This document shows, one piece after another, positions 2,381 through 19,131 of a stretch of DNA of 20,245 bases. The stretch is from positions 1 through 20,245 of the IMG/VR virus record IMGVR_UViG_3300043775_000947. One strand, written 5' to 3'. The first letter of the stretch is position 1; every line of letters starts with the position of its first letter. The translations under genes and the position numbers were made by a program. Under the pieces are notes generated by a model. The model worked only from the letters and a program-made list of their open reading frames with translations. It was not told the DNA's origin and made no database searches. Source of the stretch: a virus.

Positions 2381-2589
2381 TTCTGATTCTCCTGTAAATA
2401 TCTTATACCCTCTTTAGTAAGCTTCATCAGCATGGGTTGGCCAACTGATACGTCCACTAGATACCCAAGCCGCATTGACTTTATCAGCATTGTCATTGGG
2501 AACGTCTCAAACTTATTTATATCTACTATGCTAGTCCCATGTGTAATCAGCCACTCGGTTAGGAATGGAAGCATTTGTTTCTTGCTCAT
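2377..2589 (-). CDS. Small winged-helix-like protein, paralog B of the LTEWL family
   Basis: About 70 residues with the core FLTEWLITHGTSIVDINKF and the ending LTKEGIRYLQENQK, which match the small proteins at 1330-1581 and 4288-4506. The chosen ATG at 2589 overlaps the TGA stop of the MoxR ATPase gene (ATGA), and its own TGA overlaps the start of the DUF3150 gene, so it sits between them with no spacer. An in-frame ATG nine bases upstream (2598) is also possible. The tight packing suggests that its dose is tied to the ATPase module. It may bind DNA through a winged helix; this is inferred from pattern only. Confidence 0.65.
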   Translation of the reverse strand: MSKKQMLPFLTEWLITHGTSIVDINKFETFPMTMLIKSMRLGYLVDVSVGQPMLMKLTKEGIRYLQENQK

Positions 2590-3689
2590 AGTATCCATGC
2601 GTTAGCTATCGCAAACGCTTTAATCTGCTGGTTATTAAGCGCAATACTCTTTACTGATGGTGTGGCTACTATGGTTTTAATCCACGTACTCGTCACCTCT
2701 TTAGGTAAGCGATGGAAATACGTAGCAAACGCATCCACGTTATCCGCCTTAAGGTATTGCAATGACTTAAACGCTAGCATCAGCTGTGCTGGTGCGCTTC
2801 TCGGTACTCGCGCGTTATCGGGTTGCTTCACGATGTCATCTAGTGTGGGTAGGTCACCGCCCAACGCAAACATCGCGCTCATATCCAATGCCGCTTTCAT
2901 ACCTACCGTACCAATCAGTGCCTTGGTCATTAATGCTTCGCCTGTTGTGTCCATGTTATATATCTGATGGCTAGCTAACTCTAAGGTACGTGGGCACACG
3001 TACTGCTGGTTGTTGTGTTGTGGGTGGAATATATAATGGAATATCCCTTGCCCGTCCTTGTGCGCTCTAGCATCAAACTCTGTGTCCTTATACGAATGAA
3101 AGATAGCAGGGTTCTGTTTAGCCCACGTGATAACAAGCTCATGGATAGCATTGTTGATTGCCCAAGATTGCCACTCATCACCTGTCGACTTACGCATTGG
3201 CACACGAACTACTCGGCTGTTAGTATGGGCATTGGTTCTGTCCCCCACCCCATCAGTCGCGAAGTTCGTTGTGCCAAACACGATACTGCCTTCGGGTAAC
3301 TTGTAGTCACCCACCATCTGCTCAAGCAATAGGCGATTCACCATTAGCTTAACAAAGTCCGTACCCTTAAACACTTCATCAACCAAAATGACTTTGGGTT
3401 TGTTCCTGTCCGTGCCTAGCCATATCTCGTTTATGAACGCTCGCGTGACCTTAGCTTCGTGGTCGGGCATTGAAAGCGCAATGTCGGGAATGTCTTTTAA
3501 CGGCACGTCGATGTAGATAAAGTCGTAGTCACTTGTTCCCATTTGGTCTTTAAGGGATTTCAAGATACTAGACTTACCTACGCCGGGCTCACCCTCGAAA
3601 ATGTACGATACTTTGTTACCATTAGTACGTACTAAAGTCGCCGCTTCGTGGTGATTAACTGCAAAATTGTACGCATTTGTTGTTGCCAT
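2586..3689 (-). CDS. MoxR-class AAA+ ATPase
   Basis: This 367-residue cytoplasmic ATPase has a Walker A GEPGVGKS (about 33-40), a Walker B ILVDE (about 101-105), a sensor-1 strand VFGTTN (about 137-142) and a downstream arginine-containing segment RTNAHTNSRVVRVPM that fits the arginine-finger position. The spacing and the short N-terminus fit the MoxR/CbbQ/NorQ branch, whose members form hexamers and act with VWA-domain partners. Such a partner is encoded three genes downstream (159-1343), with a DUF3150-like protein between. In phages the role is unknown; head or host-complex remodelling is possible. AGGAG lies about eight bases upstream of the ATG. The gene follows a 159-residue DNA-binding-like protein with a 21-base gap and shares its promoter at 4269-4296. 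Confidence 0.88.
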   Translation of the reverse strand: MATTNAYNFAVNHHEAATLVRTNGNKVSYIFEGEPGVGKSSILKSLKDQMGTSDYDFIYIDVPLKDIPDIALSMPDHEAKVTRAFINEIWLGTDRNKPKVILVDEVFKGTDFVKLMVNRLLLEQMVGDYKLPEGSIVFGTTNFATDGVGDRTNAHTNSRVVRVPMRKSTGDEWQSWAINNAIHELVITWAKQNPAIFHSYKDTEFDARAHKDGQGIFHYIFHPQHNNQQYVCPRTLELASHQIYNMDTTGEALMTKALIGTVGMKAALDMSAMFALGGDLPTLDDIVKQPDNARVPRSAPAQLMLAFKSLQYLKADNVDAFATYFHRLPKEVTSTWIKTIVATPSVKSIALNNQQIKAFAIANAWIL

Positions 3690-4268: not shown

Positions 4269-4296
4269 ATTATACACCGACTGAGTCTTATTGCAA
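4269..4296 (-). promoter_or_regulatory. Sigma-70 promoter for the 159-residue gene and the MoxR module
   Basis: Minus-strand -35 TTGCAA (4296-4291), 16-base spacer, -10 TATAAT (4274-4269). The box overlaps the stop codon of the upstream small gene. The flanks TAAGACT just after the -35 and G.TAGA just after the -10 are shared with the promoter at 7783-7811, suggesting duplicated promoter cassettes. Confidence 0.65.
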
Positions 4297-4506
4297 GTGC
4301 TTGATACCTGCATCAGTTAGTTGCCACGTATAGCATTGAGTGTCTAGGTATAGGAACTTACGTTTATCTACCACATATGCCCAAAGGTCATTGTTGTTGT
4401 AGGTGTCGCCTAGTTTGTCCGCTGTTTCCACTACCGTTACCTCACGTGTACCAAAGTGCATAAGCCACTCGGTCAGCAGTTGTTTTACAATGTTGTCATC
4501 TACCAT
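4288..4506 (-). CDS. Small winged-helix-like protein, paralog C of the LTEWL family
   Basis: 72 residues: an N-terminal helix, the core LLTEWLMHFGTREVTVVET, a middle strand region and the ending WQLTDAGIKHLQ. The core and ending match paralogs A and B (1330-1581, 2377-2589). The LTDAGIKHL ending is the usual wing/last-helix signature of small winged-helix DNA-binding proteins; actual binding is inferred. The start overlaps the preceding gene by seven bases, so it is probably coupled to it. It lies just before the promoter at 4269-4296. Confidence 0.65.
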   Translation of the reverse strand: MVDDNIVKQLLTEWLMHFGTREVTVVETADKLGDTYNNNDLWAYVVDKRKFLYLDTQCYTWQLTDAGIKHLQ

Positions 4507-4682: not shown

Positions 4683-4908
4683 TGTCTTTATCCTTTCCTT
4701 TTGTTTTCTCTGCAAAATAAATCGCTACCTGTCGTGCATGCAAGCACCTGTCTTGCTCTCTGAAATACAAGAACATGATACCCCCAGCCACGACCGCATA
4801 CATCATGGCTGGTATGTTATCAGACAGGTACTCAAGCAATGGTAGCAAGACGGACAGGACAGTTAAGCCCAGCCTGTCCCACCTAACATGTGATAGTAGC
4901 GTACCCAT
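4657..4908 (-). CDS. Small membrane protein with two predicted transmembrane helices
   Basis: 83 residues with hydrophobic segments at about 14-29 (LGLTVLSVLLPLLEYL) and 34-50 (AMMYAVVAGGIMFLYF), a short DN loop between them, and a charged, Lys/Asp-rich C-terminal tail (KTKGKDKDNGN). The stop codon of the metallopeptidase gene and the start here overlap as TAATG, a strong sign of reinitiation. Two-helix topology and small size fit a class II holin, but no endolysin is adjacent and the gene lies in the accessory region. An inner-membrane host-interaction protein is equally possible. Confidence 0.55.
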   Translation of the reverse strand: MGTLLSHVRWDRLGLTVLSVLLPLLEYLSDNIPAMMYAVVAGGIMFLYFREQDRCLHARQVAIYFAEKTKGKDKDNGNTTTQP

Positions 4909-5960
4909 TACATCATTCCCACTTTTAGGTTCTCGTTGCCGTAGTCGTAGTCAGCGTACGCATCGGATAGCGCGTAGTTGGCTTCCTCAAGCTGGTCGGC
5001 TAGGTCTTGCAACAGCATGGCTACGTCCTCGGGGTCGGCTTTACTAACCCACTCGGCTATGCTACGTGTAGACACAGACAGTAGTCGCTCGGCTGATGGT
5101 ATCTCGTACGCATCTAGTGCCGATGGTGTCGTGCCACGTGCAGTCTGCCATGAATTGAACCCGCCATAGCTAGGATAGTTAGGGTACGTGCGGTACTCGC
5201 GCTTGGTCGGGTCACGCTCGGCAACAAGGGTAATGCTATCCCAATCCAGTGCACATATAGCATCGCGCAACGCAAGGCAGTGGTTAGTGTCAAGCGACTC
5301 AAAATGGCTGTGCTCGCTGTCGTACCCAATACTTATGTTGACGCACTCGGGTATGATGTCCATGTACTCTGCTGTATCGGTGTACACACCTGTCGGGTCT
5401 AGCACGTAGCCCAAGCCAAACAAGTCAGCAAGCTGATTGCCTAACGCATCGCTACACGCTCGCTCGCCACGCTGATGGGTAATGATACTGGTCGTACCTC
5501 GCCTGTCAAAAGCAATCGCATGAGTAAAGCCCTTGAGCCAATCACGATGATGGGTAGCCATCTCACCACTACCCCAGCAACCAATTTCCTCGCCGCGATG
5601 GAATATGTACGTACCCGCAACACCACGCGCAATCATGTTAAACATAAGCCACATGCCAGCACCATCGTCAGCACCTAAGCAGTCTGCCTTGTCGGTAACA
5701 AACGCTGTGCCGTCATCGGACACCCACACTTCTTGCGTGAGGATACCCTCACTCGTTCCCTTGTCGCGGTGCATCGTGTCCACATGAGCAGACCATAAAA
5801 CCCCGTTACGCTTGACGTCTACAACGTAGGCGATGGTTTGCCCGTCTGCACCTAGCATGGGTGTTGGGTTAAGCGGTGTAATGAACCGCTCAATGAATGA
5901 TGTTTCGCCATCGCTGTCATGTTGGCGACGTGTTTCTAAAATACTAATAAGTTGTTCCAT
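4908..5960 (-). CDS. Zinc metallopeptidase of the M20/M28/M42 aminopeptidase type
   Basis: 350 residues from ATG 5960, where AGGAG lies eight bases upstream; an in-frame ATG at 5987 falls inside a palindrome and lacks a ribosome site. The ordered ligand set of co-catalytic zinc peptidases is present: SAHVD (His59, Asp61), GADDGAG (Asp98), HRGEE (Glu124 and Glu125, catalytic base and ligand), AFDRRGT (Asp152) and a late SEHSHFE histidine (about 217 or 219). The C-terminal 80 residues are acidic and helical. Enzymes of this clan remove N-terminal amino acids or cleave small peptides and amides in the cytoplasm; the substrate here cannot be predicted. A 25-bp palindrome lies in its 50-base leader, and the downstream membrane-protein gene overlaps its stop. 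Confidence 0.8.
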   Translation of the reverse strand: MEQLISILETRRQHDSDGETSFIERFITPLNPTPMLGADGQTIAYVVDVKRNGVLWSAHVDTMHRDKGTSEGILTQEVWVSDDGTAFVTDKADCLGADDGAGMWLMFNMIARGVAGTYIFHRGEEIGCWGSGEMATHHRDWLKGFTHAIAFDRRGTTSIITHQRGERACSDALGNQLADLFGLGYVLDPTGVYTDTAEYMDIIPECVNISIGYDSEHSHFESLDTNHCLALRDAICALDWDSITLVAERDPTKREYRTYPNYPSYGGFNSWQTARGTTPSALDAYEIPSAERLLSVSTRSIAEWVSKADPEDVAMLLQDLADQLEEANYALSDAYADYDYGNENLKVGMM

Positions 5961-5983
5961 TGTAATTCTCCTAATAGGTTGTG

Positions 5984-6008
5984 ACAAACCGACACCATGT
6001 CGGGTTGT
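5984..6008. repeat. 25-bp palindrome, copy 1
   Basis: Imperfect inverted repeat with arms ACAACCCGACA and TGTCGGTTTGT (minus strand), between the stop of the Cys/Asp-rich gene (6010) and the start of the metallopeptidase gene (5960). No T-run follows. It is one of five intergenic copies and may be an operator or an RNA hairpin separating the two genes. Confidence 0.7.
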
Positions 6009-10125: not shown

Positions 10126-10818
10126 ATGGCTTCGCAGAGAATACAACTATATGATTTGCTTGAAGGAGTGGTTCCATACGAACCCCATTTAATACGTACA
10201 CCAATGCGTACTGAGGACTTAATGCCAGAACAAATCGTAAGTGCCGCTGCCAAAACAGCGAAAGATATACTCCGTAGGAGTGGTGCGCCCGACATAGAGG
10301 TCACCGATGAGGATGCAGCCAATGCTGAAACAGCGTTCCAAGCCTATGTGGACGGGAATAAATCCGCCCTAACCCATACAAAACTGCAAAAACCCGAATC
10401 CATTATCAAATTAGAAGCGCTAGTATCGGAATACGACTGGCGAGTCATCCAGCATACGGACCAAATTCGTATGATAGTCACGAACAAACTGCTAAACCTG
10501 TCCGATAACAAGGACCCGAAGGTACAACTCAAGGCTGTAGAGCTGCTAGGCAAGCTGGCAGACGTAGGAATGTTCGTTGAGAAGCAAGAAATCACGTATA
10601 AACAACGTACTGACGACGAAATCGACGCGGCACTGAACGAAAAACTGGGAATGCTGATAGAAGGAAGCTTTACTTCAACTGCCGAAACCGCTCCAGTACC
10701 GTTAGTGAACGCTACCAAACCTAAAACCGTGGACATACTAGTCCAAACTGACCCACTTGCTGTGTCACCACTGCCATCCATGCCTAAAATTGACATTGGA
10801 GCGCTATTAGGTGAGTAG
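10126..10818 (+). CDS. Terminase small subunit (putative)
   Basis: 230 residues, soluble and largely helical. Residues about 95-170 contain RMIVTNKLLNLSDNKDPKVQ then LKAVELLGKLADVGMFVEK, resembling the helix pair (R..ALELLGK..GMFVEK) that I associate with small terminase subunits and their oligomerisation core. The C-terminal 50 residues are Pro/Thr/Val-rich and probably disordered. The gene directly precedes and overlaps the large terminase gene by eight bases, the usual order. Small subunits form rings that recognise the packaging site and feed DNA to the large subunit. The ATG at 10126 has a modest AAGG upstream. The call rests on position plus the helical motif. Confidence 0.75.
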   Translation: MASQRIQLYDLLEGVVPYEPHLIRTPMRTEDLMPEQIVSAAAKTAKDILRRSGAPDIEVTDEDAANAETAFQAYVDGNKSALTHTKLQKPESIIKLEALVSEYDWRVIQHTDQIRMIVTNKLLNLSDNKDPKVQLKAVELLGKLADVGMFVEKQEITYKQRTDDEIDAALNEKLGMLIEGSFTSTAETAPVPLVNATKPKTVDILVQTDPLAVSPLPSMPKIDIGALLGE

Positions 10819-12355
10819 TTTAAGGGAATACATTGCTACTTTGCCGTTAGAGCAGGGTGTAAATGTCTTGACAAACCTGAAAAAGATGCCTGAAAGGGAA
10901 CAGCAGGAGTTTTTAGACCTTATTGAAGAGAAAATGACCCGCATAAAACGAAATGCGGCTCAAGGCGGACTGCTTGACTTCGTAAAAGCGGTGTATCCAA
11001 ACTACATGGTGGGTGCCCACCACAAAAGACTGGCTAAATTACTGGAGGAGGCGATTGATGGTGATAAAAAACGTATTATTGTTAACATTGCTCCTCGTAT
11101 GGGTAAGTCTGAGCTTGTGTCTTATCTGTTCCCTGCTTGGTTTTTGGGACACCACCCAGATAAAAAGATTATTATGGCCACGCATACCGCTGACTTGTCT
11201 ACTACTTTCGGTCGCAGGGTGCGAGATTTGGTTGGTAGTAAAGAGTATCGAGGTGTATTCCCAAATGTATCACTAAATCAGGATGCAAAAGCGGCCGGGC
11301 AGTGGAACACTAGCGACGGCGGTCAGTATTATGCGGCTGGTGTGGGCGGTGCGTTGGCTGGTCGCGGTGCCGATGTGTTTGTGATTGATGACCCGCACTC
11401 AGAGCAGGAAGCGAAAACAGGTAACCCGTCGGTGTTCTTATCCGCATGGGAGTGGTTCCAGTCAGGGCCGTTACAACGGTTGATGCCTAATGGGGTTATC
11501 ATAGTAGTCATGACACGTTGGTCGATGATGGACCTGACAGGTCAGTTGGTTAACCACATGATAAAGAACCCCGATGCCGACCAGTGGGAGGTCGTTGAGT
11601 TTCCAGCCATACTAGATGAAGGTACCGAAGATGAAAGGTCGCTATGGCCAGAGTTCTGGCCCCTTGAGGAGCTCAAGAAGAAACGCGCTGGTATGGATAC
11701 ACGGTACTGGTCGAGTCAGTATTTGCAGAATCCAACTGCAGAAGGAGCGCAACTCATTAAGAAAGAGTGGTGGTCGCACTGGGAGGGAGAGGCACCACCG
11801 GTATGTGAATATACGATTATGTCTTTGGACGCGGCTCAGGAGTCTCACAACAGGGCTGACTATAATGCAGTTACACTCTGGGGCATATTTTTTAATGAAG
11901 AGACCAATCAGAATAATATAATCTTGCTCAATGCGTGGAAAGAGCGGATGGAGTTCCCTGAACTCAAACGACGCATGATTGCCGAATACAAGGAATGGGA
12001 ACCGGATACGTTCTTGGTGGAGAAGAAGTCTAACGGTGCAGCGCTATACCAAGAGCTACGGTCCATGGGTATGCCTGTTTCGGAGTACACACCGGTGAAA
12101 GATAAGGTAGCTAGGGTTAACTCGGTTACTGATTTGTTTTCATCAGGTATGGTTTGGGCCCCAACAGACAGACGTTGGGCGAATGAGGTGATAACAGAAT
12201 GTGCCGAATTCCCAGTAGGCACGCACGATGACTTTGTGGATAGCTGCACACAGGCGTTAATCCGATTTAGAAAAGGTGGCTTTATTAAGTTACCTAGCGA
12301 CGAAGCTGATGATGATGTATTATATCGGTATCAACGTAAAGCAGCCTATTACTAA
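10811..12355 (+). CDS. Terminase large subunit (packaging ATPase/nuclease)
   Basis: 514 residues. The ATPase domain has a Walker A-like PRMGKSE (about 95-101), a Walker B VFVIDD (about 189-194) and the conserved coupling strand VVMTRWS. The C-terminal RNase H-like nuclease domain shows MSLDAA, a middle FLVEKKSNG segment and HDDFVDS near the end, supplying the acidic metal ligands. The enzyme docks on the portal, cuts concatemeric DNA and pumps it into the prohead. The start is a GTG at 10811 overlapping the small-subunit stop, with GGAG nine bases before it; the next in-frame ATG would remove the N-terminal helices. The length is typical. Confidence 0.93.
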   Translation: MSSLREYIATLPLEQGVNVLTNLKKMPEREQQEFLDLIEEKMTRIKRNAAQGGLLDFVKAVYPNYMVGAHHKRLAKLLEEAIDGDKKRIIVNIAPRMGKSELVSYLFPAWFLGHHPDKKIIMATHTADLSTTFGRRVRDLVGSKEYRGVFPNVSLNQDAKAAGQWNTSDGGQYYAAGVGGALAGRGADVFVIDDPHSEQEAKTGNPSVFLSAWEWFQSGPLQRLMPNGVIIVVMTRWSMMDLTGQLVNHMIKNPDADQWEVVEFPAILDEGTEDERSLWPEFWPLEELKKKRAGMDTRYWSSQYLQNPTAEGAQLIKKEWWSHWEGEAPPVCEYTIMSLDAAQESHNRADYNAVTLWGIFFNEETNQNNIILLNAWKERMEFPELKRRMIAEYKEWEPDTFLVEKKSNGAALYQELRSMGMPVSEYTPVKDKVARVNSVTDLFSSGMVWAPTDRRWANEVITECAEFPVGTHDDFVDSCTQALIRFRKGGFIKLPSDEADDDVLYRYQRKAAYY

Positions 12356-17546: not shown

Positions 17547-18455
17547 ATGGCTATTTCACGCGCACAGCTCCTTAAAGAGCTACTACCAGGTCTTAATGCA
17601 TTATTCGGTTTAGAGTATGCACGATATGGTGAAGAACACACTGAAATCTACGAGACAGAGACTTCAGAGCGTTCATTCGAAGAAGAAACAAAATTGTCTG
17701 GCTTCTCAGCTGCACCTGTTAAAAACGAGGGCTCTGCCATCGCTTACGACAATGCTCAAGAAGCATGGACAGCTCGATACAACCACGAAACAATCGCTTA
17801 TGGCTTCAGCTTAACTGAAGAAGCTATCGAAGATAACTTGTATGACTCATTGTCTGCTCGTTATACTAAAGCATTGGCTCGTGCTATGGCTTACACGAAA
17901 CAAGTGAAAGCCGCCGCTGTATTGAATAATGGCTTTACCGCTGGCTATAACGGTGGTGACGGCACTACATTATTCTCAACTACACACAACTTAGTGTCTG
18001 GTGGTAGCAATAGCAACCGTCCAACAGTTGCAGCTGACTTGAACGAAACTTCATTGGAAAATGCAGTTATTCAAATCGCAGCTTGGACTGACGAACGTGG
18101 TCTATTGATTGCAGCTAAACCTAAGAAACTTATCGTTCCACCAGCATTGCAATTCGTTGCAACACGCTTGTTGGAAACTAAGCTACGTGTAGGTACTGCA
18201 GACAACGACATCAACGCCATTGAAAACAACGGTTCAATTCCAGAAGGTTACGCAATTAACCACTTCTTGACCGACAACAATGCTTGGTTCTTGACTACAG
18301 ACGTGCCAAACGGTATGAAACACTTTGTTCGTACCCCGTTGCAAAACTCAATGGATGGTGACTTCGATACAGGTAACGTACGTTATAAATCACGTGAGCG
18401 TTATTCATTCGGTTGGTCTGACCCATTAGGTATGTACGGTTCTCCAGGCGCTTAA
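17547..18455 (+). CDS. Major capsid protein (HK97 fold, Mu gpT-like)
   Basis: 302 residues. The sequence shows an N-arm (SRAQLLKELLPGLNALFGLE), an E-loop-like region with ETSERSFEEETKLSGF, the helix segment AYGFSLTEEAIEDNLYDSLS, DGTTLFSTTHNLVSGG, and a P-domain strand LIAAKPKKLIVPPALQFVAT. These match the pattern of Mu gpT-type capsid proteins, which share the HK97 fold. About 415 or more copies would build the icosahedral shell. AAGGAGAT precedes the ATG and a terminator follows directly (18470-18498), typical for the most expressed late gene. The N-terminus shows no obvious prohead protease domain, so the scaffold is probably supplied by 15516-16466. Confidence 0.88.
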   Translation: MAISRAQLLKELLPGLNALFGLEYARYGEEHTEIYETETSERSFEEETKLSGFSAAPVKNEGSAIAYDNAQEAWTARYNHETIAYGFSLTEEAIEDNLYDSLSARYTKALARAMAYTKQVKAAAVLNNGFTAGYNGGDGTTLFSTTHNLVSGGSNSNRPTVAADLNETSLENAVIQIAAWTDERGLLIAAKPKKLIVPPALQFVATRLLETKLRVGTADNDINAIENNGSIPEGYAINHFLTDNNAWFLTTDVPNGMKHFVRTPLQNSMDGDFDTGNVRYKSRERYSFGWSDPLGMYGSPGA

Positions 18456-18469
18456 TTAGGCTTGGTAAT

Positions 18470-18498
18470 AAAAGGGCTCACTTCGGTGGGCCTTTTTT
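18470..18498 (+). terminator. Terminator after the major capsid gene
   Basis: An 11-bp stem AAAGGGCTCAC / GTGGGCCTTTT with two wobble pairs and a TTCG tetraloop, ending in six Ts. It closes the head operon and isolates the pqqA-like gene that follows. Confidence 0.88.
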
Positions 18499-18524
18499 AA
18501 TGGTTTTCCGTATTGTGATATGTC

Positions 18525-18567
18525 TATAAAAGAGCAGAATGTGTACATGTGCACATCAATGTGTACA
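18525..18567 (+). promoter_or_regulatory. Putative promoter and GTGTAC-repeat leader of the pqqA-like gene
   Basis: A TATAAA at 18525-18530 is a possible -10; the -35 is weak (T-rich, near 18503). Downstream, AATGTGTACA occurs twice (18538-18547 and 18558-18567), exactly 20 bases apart, on either side of the perfect palindrome ATGTGCACAT (18547-18556). The two-turn spacing of GTGTAC/GTGCAC sites suggests a dimeric protein binding one face of the helix just before the ribosome site. Confidence 0.45.
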
Positions 18568-18592
18568 CTCAATCGACTTAAGGAGATTTACC

Positions 18593-18664
18593 ATGTGGAC
18601 TACACCAGCAGCTACTGAAATGCGTTTTGGCTTTGAAGTAACAATGTACGTAATGAACAAGTAG
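18593..18664 (+). CDS. pqqA: PqqA-like precursor peptide of pyrroloquinoline quinone (phage-encoded)
   Basis: A 23-codon gene starting MWTTPAATEM and ending GFEVTMYVMNK. It matches the bacterial PqqA pattern in length (22-24 residues), the MW..P opening, and the core GFEVT.Y in which Glu15 and Tyr19 sit at exactly the positions that the radical SAM enzyme PqqE crosslinks to build PQQ. The PqqD chaperone binds this peptide; PqqE, PqqB and PqqC then act on it, and proteases release the crosslinked dipeptide. None of those partners is encoded in this window. The AAGGAGATTTACC leader nearly copies the phage's own virion-gene sites (for example TAAGGAGATTAAT before 19714), and terminators stand on both sides, so it looks like a phage-adapted stand-alone cassette. 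It is far below usual gene-caller limits. Alternative: a PqqA-like RiPP with another product. Confidence 0.9.
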   Translation: MWTTPAATEMRFGFEVTMYVMNK

Positions 18665-18668
18665 TACT

Positions 18669-18688
18669 AGCCCCTTCGGGGGCTTTTT
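18669..18688 (+). terminator. Terminator after the pqqA-like gene
   Basis: Stem AGCCCC / GGGGCT with a TTCG tetraloop followed by TTTT, five bases beyond the pqqA stop. A compact, stable UUCG terminator that completes the single-gene unit. Confidence 0.88.
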
Positions 18689-18701: not shown

Positions 18702-19073
18702 CTACTTTTCTGTAAGCTGACCTGCTTTTAATTGACGTTCTTCGTGGTGGTGTTTGCGGTGGCAGTTGGCGCATAGGACTATGCATTTGGCTTCTATCTC
18801 TTCACGGGCTATTTTATAAGCTCCGTTCTGTACTAATTCACTTATCTTTCTGTTGGCTGGGTCGGGTACTACGTGGTGGAAGTCTAATGCTGACGGGTGG
18901 TTTTCACCACAGTTGGCACATGAAAGGGTTGCTTTAAAGGCTTCCCATTGAATACGTTTCTTTATCTTACCTAGTCGAACACGCTCAATCTGTGCAGGTT
19001 TGTTGCCTTCATAATGTTTCTTCGAATATAACTTTGCTTTTGCCTTTCGAACTGCGGGGTCTTTGTACGGCAT
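18702..19073 (-). CDS. HNH endonuclease (homing-type, opposite strand)
   Basis: 123 residues from ATG 19073 (a TTAGG site lies upstream; an ATG 13 codons earlier has none). The N-terminal half is very basic and helical (RKAKAKLYSKKHYEGNKPAQ). The HNH core comprises CANC (about 52-55), LDFHHVVP (about 63-70, catalytic His pair) and CANCHRKHHHEE (about 101-112, second zinc-binding pair and final His). Such small freestanding HNH enzymes cut DNA and often spread as homing elements in phage genomes. It lies on the minus strand between rightward virion genes with its own promoter (19103-19131), consistent with insertion. A packaging-associated HNH is less likely because terminase is distant. Confidence 0.85.
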   Translation of the reverse strand: MPYKDPAVRKAKAKLYSKKHYEGNKPAQIERVRLGKIKKRIQWEAFKATLSCANCGENHPSALDFHHVVPDPANRKISELVQNGAYKIAREEIEAKCIVLCANCHRKHHHEERQLKAGQLTEK

Positions 19074-19102
19074 AGTTAACCTAATAAAACATTGACATAC
19101 GA

Positions 19103-19131
19103 ACAATATCATAGTATAAATCAGTTATCAA
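19103..19131 (-). promoter_or_regulatory. Sigma-70-like promoter for the HNH gene
   Basis: Minus-strand TTGATA (19131-19126), 17-base spacer, TATTGT (19108-19103). The start would fall about 25-30 bases before the ATG at 19073. It would allow early expression independent of the rightward late operon. Confidence 0.55.

Follow-up and report, generated by a model that had tools for sequence, protein, structure and literature searches.

A 23-residue PQQ precursor gene, pqqA, in phages of presumed Methylophilaceae hosts

Auxiliary metabolic genes of phages, psbA and phoH among them, are host-derived, and their presumed role is to sustain a pathway of the host. Genes of that type encode enzymes, whereas a phage pqqA, likewise host-derived and thought to maintain a host pathway, would give a consumable ribosomal peptide substrate. 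In PQQ biosynthesis, PqqE acts with PqqD to join a Glu and a Tyr of the PqqA peptide (Glu16 and Tyr20 in M. extorquens), and a protease, PqqB and PqqC complete the cofactor (PMC10906245). Among the closest described systems is the Lake Baikal viral population VP_266, a T4-like, presumed Methylophilaceae virus that encodes PqqA together with methanol dehydrogenase, and for which the same role as that considered here was proposed in 2020 (PMC7678222). That paper also states that phage P19250A encodes none of the auxiliary genes it reports. In addition, a reservoir study of 2026 includes viral pqqA in its list of phosphorus-cycle genes (PMC13188868). The initial annotation of the locus described here knew of no described phage pqqA, a view that these two reports contradict. 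PQQ goes unmentioned in the OM43 phage papers PMC8163748, PMC8024684 and PMC10580990, and in PMC9004378 it appears only as a component of the OM43 medium, added at 1 nM, with no pqqA named.

The locus lies in a 20-kb fragment of a phage genome (20,245 nucleotides, the whole stretch analysed, called the window below), which is assigned to a phage because of matches to terminase, portal and capsid proteins, all upstream of pqqA (Table 1). An ATG at 18593 opens a plus-strand frame of 23 codons that is closed by a stop codon at 18662–18664, and the peptide encoded at 18593–18664 is MWTTPAATEMRFGFEVTMYVMNK. The features that had been claimed from inspection of the letters were all present: a complete 23-codon frame, Glu15 and Tyr19, a GFEVT.Y core (here GFEVTMY), an MW..P start (here MWTTP), and a ribosome site ahead of the frame, located as AAGGAG. 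E15 and Y19 have the E-x3-Y spacing of the PqqE cross-link pair. Alignment to the Pfam and TIGRFAM PqqA models, which the initial annotation had proposed as a check, exceeded both cut-offs, with 40.3 bits against 21.1 for Pfam PF08042 (E = 3e-10) and 38.8 bits against 20 for the equivalog model NCBIfam TIGR02107 (E = 5.6e-10). The wording “pqqA-like” proved too weak, as the peptide is a full PqqA that matches a Methylophilaceae chromosomal PqqA in 23/23 residues.

In the window the PqqA motif is found a single time, and 100 shuffles never produced it. Free-standing PqqA peptides are short, about 23–29 aa, and this one has 23 aa with its own start, ribosome site and stop; it had been missed by gene annotation. 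As far as sequence can tell, 18593–18664 is a true pqqA that originated in Methylophilaceae.

Table 1. Features in and around the pqqA locus, in window coordinates.
Feature	Position	Strand	Basis or remark
pqqA (23-aa PQQ precursor peptide)	18593..18664, stop included	+	frame and PqqA models
Ribosome-binding site AAGGAG	18580..18585	+	7 nt from ATG; similarity to host pqqA starts about here
Predicted intrinsic terminator (hairpin), between capsid gene and pqqA	18470..18497	+	
Predicted intrinsic terminator (hairpin), directly after pqqA	18669..18684	+	
Major capsid protein, HTVC023P/HTVC027P-like phage lineage, upstream neighbour	17547..18455	+	PHROG major head protein; tblastn
HNH endonuclease, downstream neighbour	18702..19112	-	PHROG
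Terminase large subunit	10811..12355	+	marks window as phage
Phage-type upstream region (putative promoter/leader)	18495..18592	+	common to unrelated phages, not to host pqqA loci
Two direct repeats AATGTGTACA	18538-18547 and 18558-18567	+	TGTACA palindrome at 18539-18556; possible operator

The same 23 residues constitute the PqqA of many Methylophilaceae, for example an OM43 single-cell genome (L289) and Methylophilaceae bacterium 11 (L281). At the DNA level the window gene is 94–99% identical to chromosomal copies of this family, and the similarity to host pqqA loci is limited to the ribosome site and reading frame, ending at the stop codon. Within a sample of 150 Methylophilaceae genomes, pqqA was found in 149, at 0–12 copies per genome (median 4) and with at least two copies in 140; multicopy pqqA alongside single pqqBCDE had been published earlier (PMC4109929). 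The bacteria themselves thus appear to use pqqA dosage. The host of the window phage is presumed, from pqqA itself, to belong to this family. The initial annotation had asked whether the host has pqqB–E, and for the presumed host family the answer is yes: of 8 genomes, 7 had a pqqE that scored over its cut-off and the remaining one was a single-cell genome of 0.9 Mb, and pqqBCDE operons were present in two. PQQ-dependent methanol dehydrogenases and further quinoprotein homologues were also found in bacterial genomes of the family. The window copy resembles the orphan pqqA genes of Methylophilaceae chromosomes in its identical peptide, in the style of its ribosome site and in standing apart from pqqBCDE, but differs from them in lying in a phage genome, next to a capsid gene and behind a phage-type promoter region. 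As expected of an auxiliary metabolic gene, it sits between phage genes, derives by all appearances from a host and is maintained by selection.

In the window, pqqA lies directly 3′ of the major capsid gene, whose product is 63–64% identical to those of pelagiphages HTVC023P and HTVC027P (tblastn), and is bracketed by two terminator-like hairpins. It is predicted to form a transcription unit by itself, equipped with a phage-type promoter region and a terminator. A search for a Sigma-70 consensus gave nothing beyond chance level, and an Rfam search near the gene gave no match. The exact AATGTGTACA repeat occurs in the window only at 18538–18567 and is partly retained in the phage alignment of the upstream region; the repeats around the palindrome are perhaps an operator.

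The segment 18495–18665, comprising the upstream region and the gene, is 80–87% identical to four viral loci (L145, L164, L141 and L187) and 75% identical to a fifth (L146). Over the stretches compared, these five otherwise lacked DNA similarity to the window, nor could a relative of the window's capsid protein be detected in them, and the upstream regions of host pqqA genes showed no likeness to 18495–18592. The simplest reading of these alignments is that a cassette of promoter and pqqA has been handed between otherwise dissimilar phages; common descent with a slower-changing patch is a possible alternative. Kin of the HNH endonuclease encoded downstream adjoin pqqA in three loci (L001, L009 and L179) and adjoin the capsid gene in seven relatives lacking pqqA (L005, L016, L022, L040, L060, L077 and L078). 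The enzyme might be a free-standing homing endonuclease that mobilises the pqqA slot.

Several features far upstream in the window were also recorded. Three minus-strand ORFs of 72–84 aa (1330–1584, 2377–2598 and 4288–4506) have a common motif like LTEWLIxHGT and look like a small paralogous family. Minus-strand genes at 159–1343 and 2586–3689 encode a DUF2201 metallopeptidase/VWA-like protein and an AAA ATPase, reminiscent of MoxR/VWA systems, although the labels of the 159–1343 product conflict (“HNH endonuclease” in PHROGs, DUF2201 in Pfam). An M28-kind peptidase, encoded at 4908–5987 (minus strand; PHROG peptidase 1.7e-70, Pfam M28 slightly under its cut-off), is unusual for a phage early region.

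Viral contigs were scanned with a degenerate DNA pattern for WxxP-x7-GxEVTxY, which fixes E15 and Y19. The pattern matched at least 120 contigs, compared with 2 matches for an out-of-register control in which the spacer was one base shorter, and among the in-register matches listed every one was a complete PqqA peptide of 23–25 residues. A ribosome-site-like motif preceded the gene in 127/127 cases with enough sequence. When the fixed positions were varied, no PqqA was found among the viral stretches recovered for E15D (25 stretches), E15Q/K (3 stretches) or Y19F/S/C (5 stretches). Across 106 distinct viral pqqA genes, and counting non-pattern codons only, pN/pS was 0.27 (pN 0.16, pS 0.59); the low ratio at these codons indicates that selection acts on the peptide and not on the DNA. 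Viral pqqA is under purifying selection. Its neighbouring genes fell into 35 context groups. A search of 1.7 Mb of viral loci revealed neither pqqB–E nor methanol dehydrogenase, the latter in contrast to VP_266; the sampled phages bring only the PqqA substrate and no pathway enzymes.

Matches in an annotated phage collection comprised nine Methylophilales phage records (P19250A, Venkman, MEP301, MEP401, MEP402 and four Melnitz), one uncultured spring phage and two records labelled “Acinetobacter phage MD-2021a”. The last two were not counted as evidence for phages, since the record that was inspected looks bacterial and the other stands under the same label. The inspected record (CAKLQF020000010.1, L088) carries a full pqqBCDE operon and a polyphosphate kinase gene (ppk) and is probably a bacterial contig mislabelled as phage. 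None of the matching phage records annotates pqqA; each has either no feature at that place or an antisense hypothetical protein. The peptides of P19250A, Venkman, MEP301, MEP401/402 and Melnitz are 73–100% identical to that of the window, although these isolates belong to other phage lineages and carry the gene at other genome positions. In P19250A, pqqA occupies the complement of KX815270.1 28085–28153 (L082 4001–4069) and encodes a peptide 100% identical to the window's. All OM43 phages named in PMC10580990, together with P19250A, have pqqA. Because the gene is present in every cultured Methylophilales phage named in the literature searched, precursor supply is probably a common part of infection.

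Within the capsid family of the window, pqqA immediately follows the capsid gene in 14 loci (the window and 13 others). The initial annotation had held that absence from close phage relatives would count against the gene, and this was borne out in part: in the stretches examined around the capsid gene, pqqA is present in no more than 2 of the 80 nearest relatives by capsid that were compared. At least 400 bp past the capsid gene were available in 69 of the 78 relatives without it. On the capsid tree the trait needs 5 changes, compared with 14.0 in shuffles, none of 500 shuffles being as low. The trait is therefore clustered on the tree, yet has been gained or lost more than once. Its presence may be read as tracking the host rather than the phage lineage, as a host-linked accessory gene and not a lineage core gene.

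How might such a gene serve a phage? During infection the phage gene would make PqqA, which host PqqD/PqqE, the protease, PqqB and PqqC would convert to PQQ. PqqA is used one for one per PQQ, so that an extra or phage-timed copy could lift precursor supply, and extra gene dose or phage-timed expression is on this account plausible for PQQ upkeep. The phage copy may add to or replace used precursor, sustaining supply while host transcription is shut down, and the PQQ supplied could keep the periplasmic PQQ-dependent methanol dehydrogenase running, providing energy and carbon for phage production. Purified PqqA yielded PQQ in Gluconobacter extract, according to work cited in a passage of PMC9851590, and pqqAB overexpression raised PQQ by 29% in Acetobacter (PMC7936290). 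The rise from pqqAB alone was far below that from pqqABCDE in the same study, and precursor may therefore not be the sole limit on PQQ. We consider the best explanation, with a probability of roughly three in four, to be that this is a genuine, phage-kept pqqA that sustains PQQ precursor for host methanol dehydrogenase in infection. It is preferred because the peptide is identical to the host's, because pqqBCDE and PQQ-dependent methanol dehydrogenases occur in the bacterial family, and because the family has itself multiplied pqqA.

PQQ might be supplied for another purpose, for instance as an antioxidant or for a different PQQ enzyme, as PQQ is redox active and further quinoprotein homologues are encoded in the bacterial genomes. 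Methanol dehydrogenase, however, is the main PQQ user in methylotrophs, and we consider a different use unlikely. One published virus, moreover, pairs pqqA with methanol dehydrogenase (PMC7678222). The oxidation of sugars, which had been suggested as a benefit alongside that of methanol, found no support. Diversion of host enzymes had been suggested as well: a phage peptide occupying PqqD/PqqE could block or divert the host PQQ pathway, for example starving rival phages or the cell, and given the tight binding of PqqD to PqqA (Kd 0.39 µM, PMC10906245) surplus peptide could compete. This is disfavoured, since a peptide identical to the host's is normal substrate, and the variants tested never replace the cross-linked residues, whose retention a decoy would not require. 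We regard interference with the host pathway as improbable.

That the phage acquired a host gene by chance and retains it without function is, in our judgement, more improbable still. The gene spans only 69 bp and its DNA is close to host copies, but viral pqqA combines strong synonymous divergence (pS 0.55–0.59) with few amino-acid changes, is spread over at least 35 gene contexts and all of the named isolates, and retained a ribosome-site-like motif in each of the 127 cases. We give the least credence to a role of the DNA itself as an attachment or recombination site, a target for integration or recombination with several host pqqA loci rather than a gene. Host copies are many, and the DNA similarity is bounded by the ribosome site and stop codon; yet what is retained is the entire frame, through codon-wise purifying selection and not exact DNA identity, and a phage-type promoter region stands ahead of it. 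Melnitz, which is lytic and T4-like, has pqqA too, and the window proteins tested included no recognisable integrase.

Maintenance of PQQ for methanol oxidation thus stands as the preferred reading. The wider proposition, that stand-alone pqqA is near-general in Methylophilaceae phages across dissimilar lineages, travels as a promoter–pqqA cassette and reflects a precursor dosage commonly required for infecting methylotrophs, is offered tentatively, as something just short of an even bet. That every named isolate has pqqA, that the cross-link residues are invariant and that a promoter–pqqA cassette is shared all appear to be unreported in the literature searched, and the position of the gene in P19250A corrects the statement made about that phage in PMC7678222.

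Methylophilaceae, including OM43 and Methylopumilus, are important methanol consumers in oceans and lakes. Infected Methylophilaceae may keep or raise PQQ-dependent methanol oxidation, an effect on the carbon cycle that would have been overlooked because annotation skips genes as short as 69 bp. The gene could also serve as a sequence marker that points to the hosts of uncultured phages, and phage pqqA offers a testable case of a phage supplying a peptide substrate instead of an enzyme.
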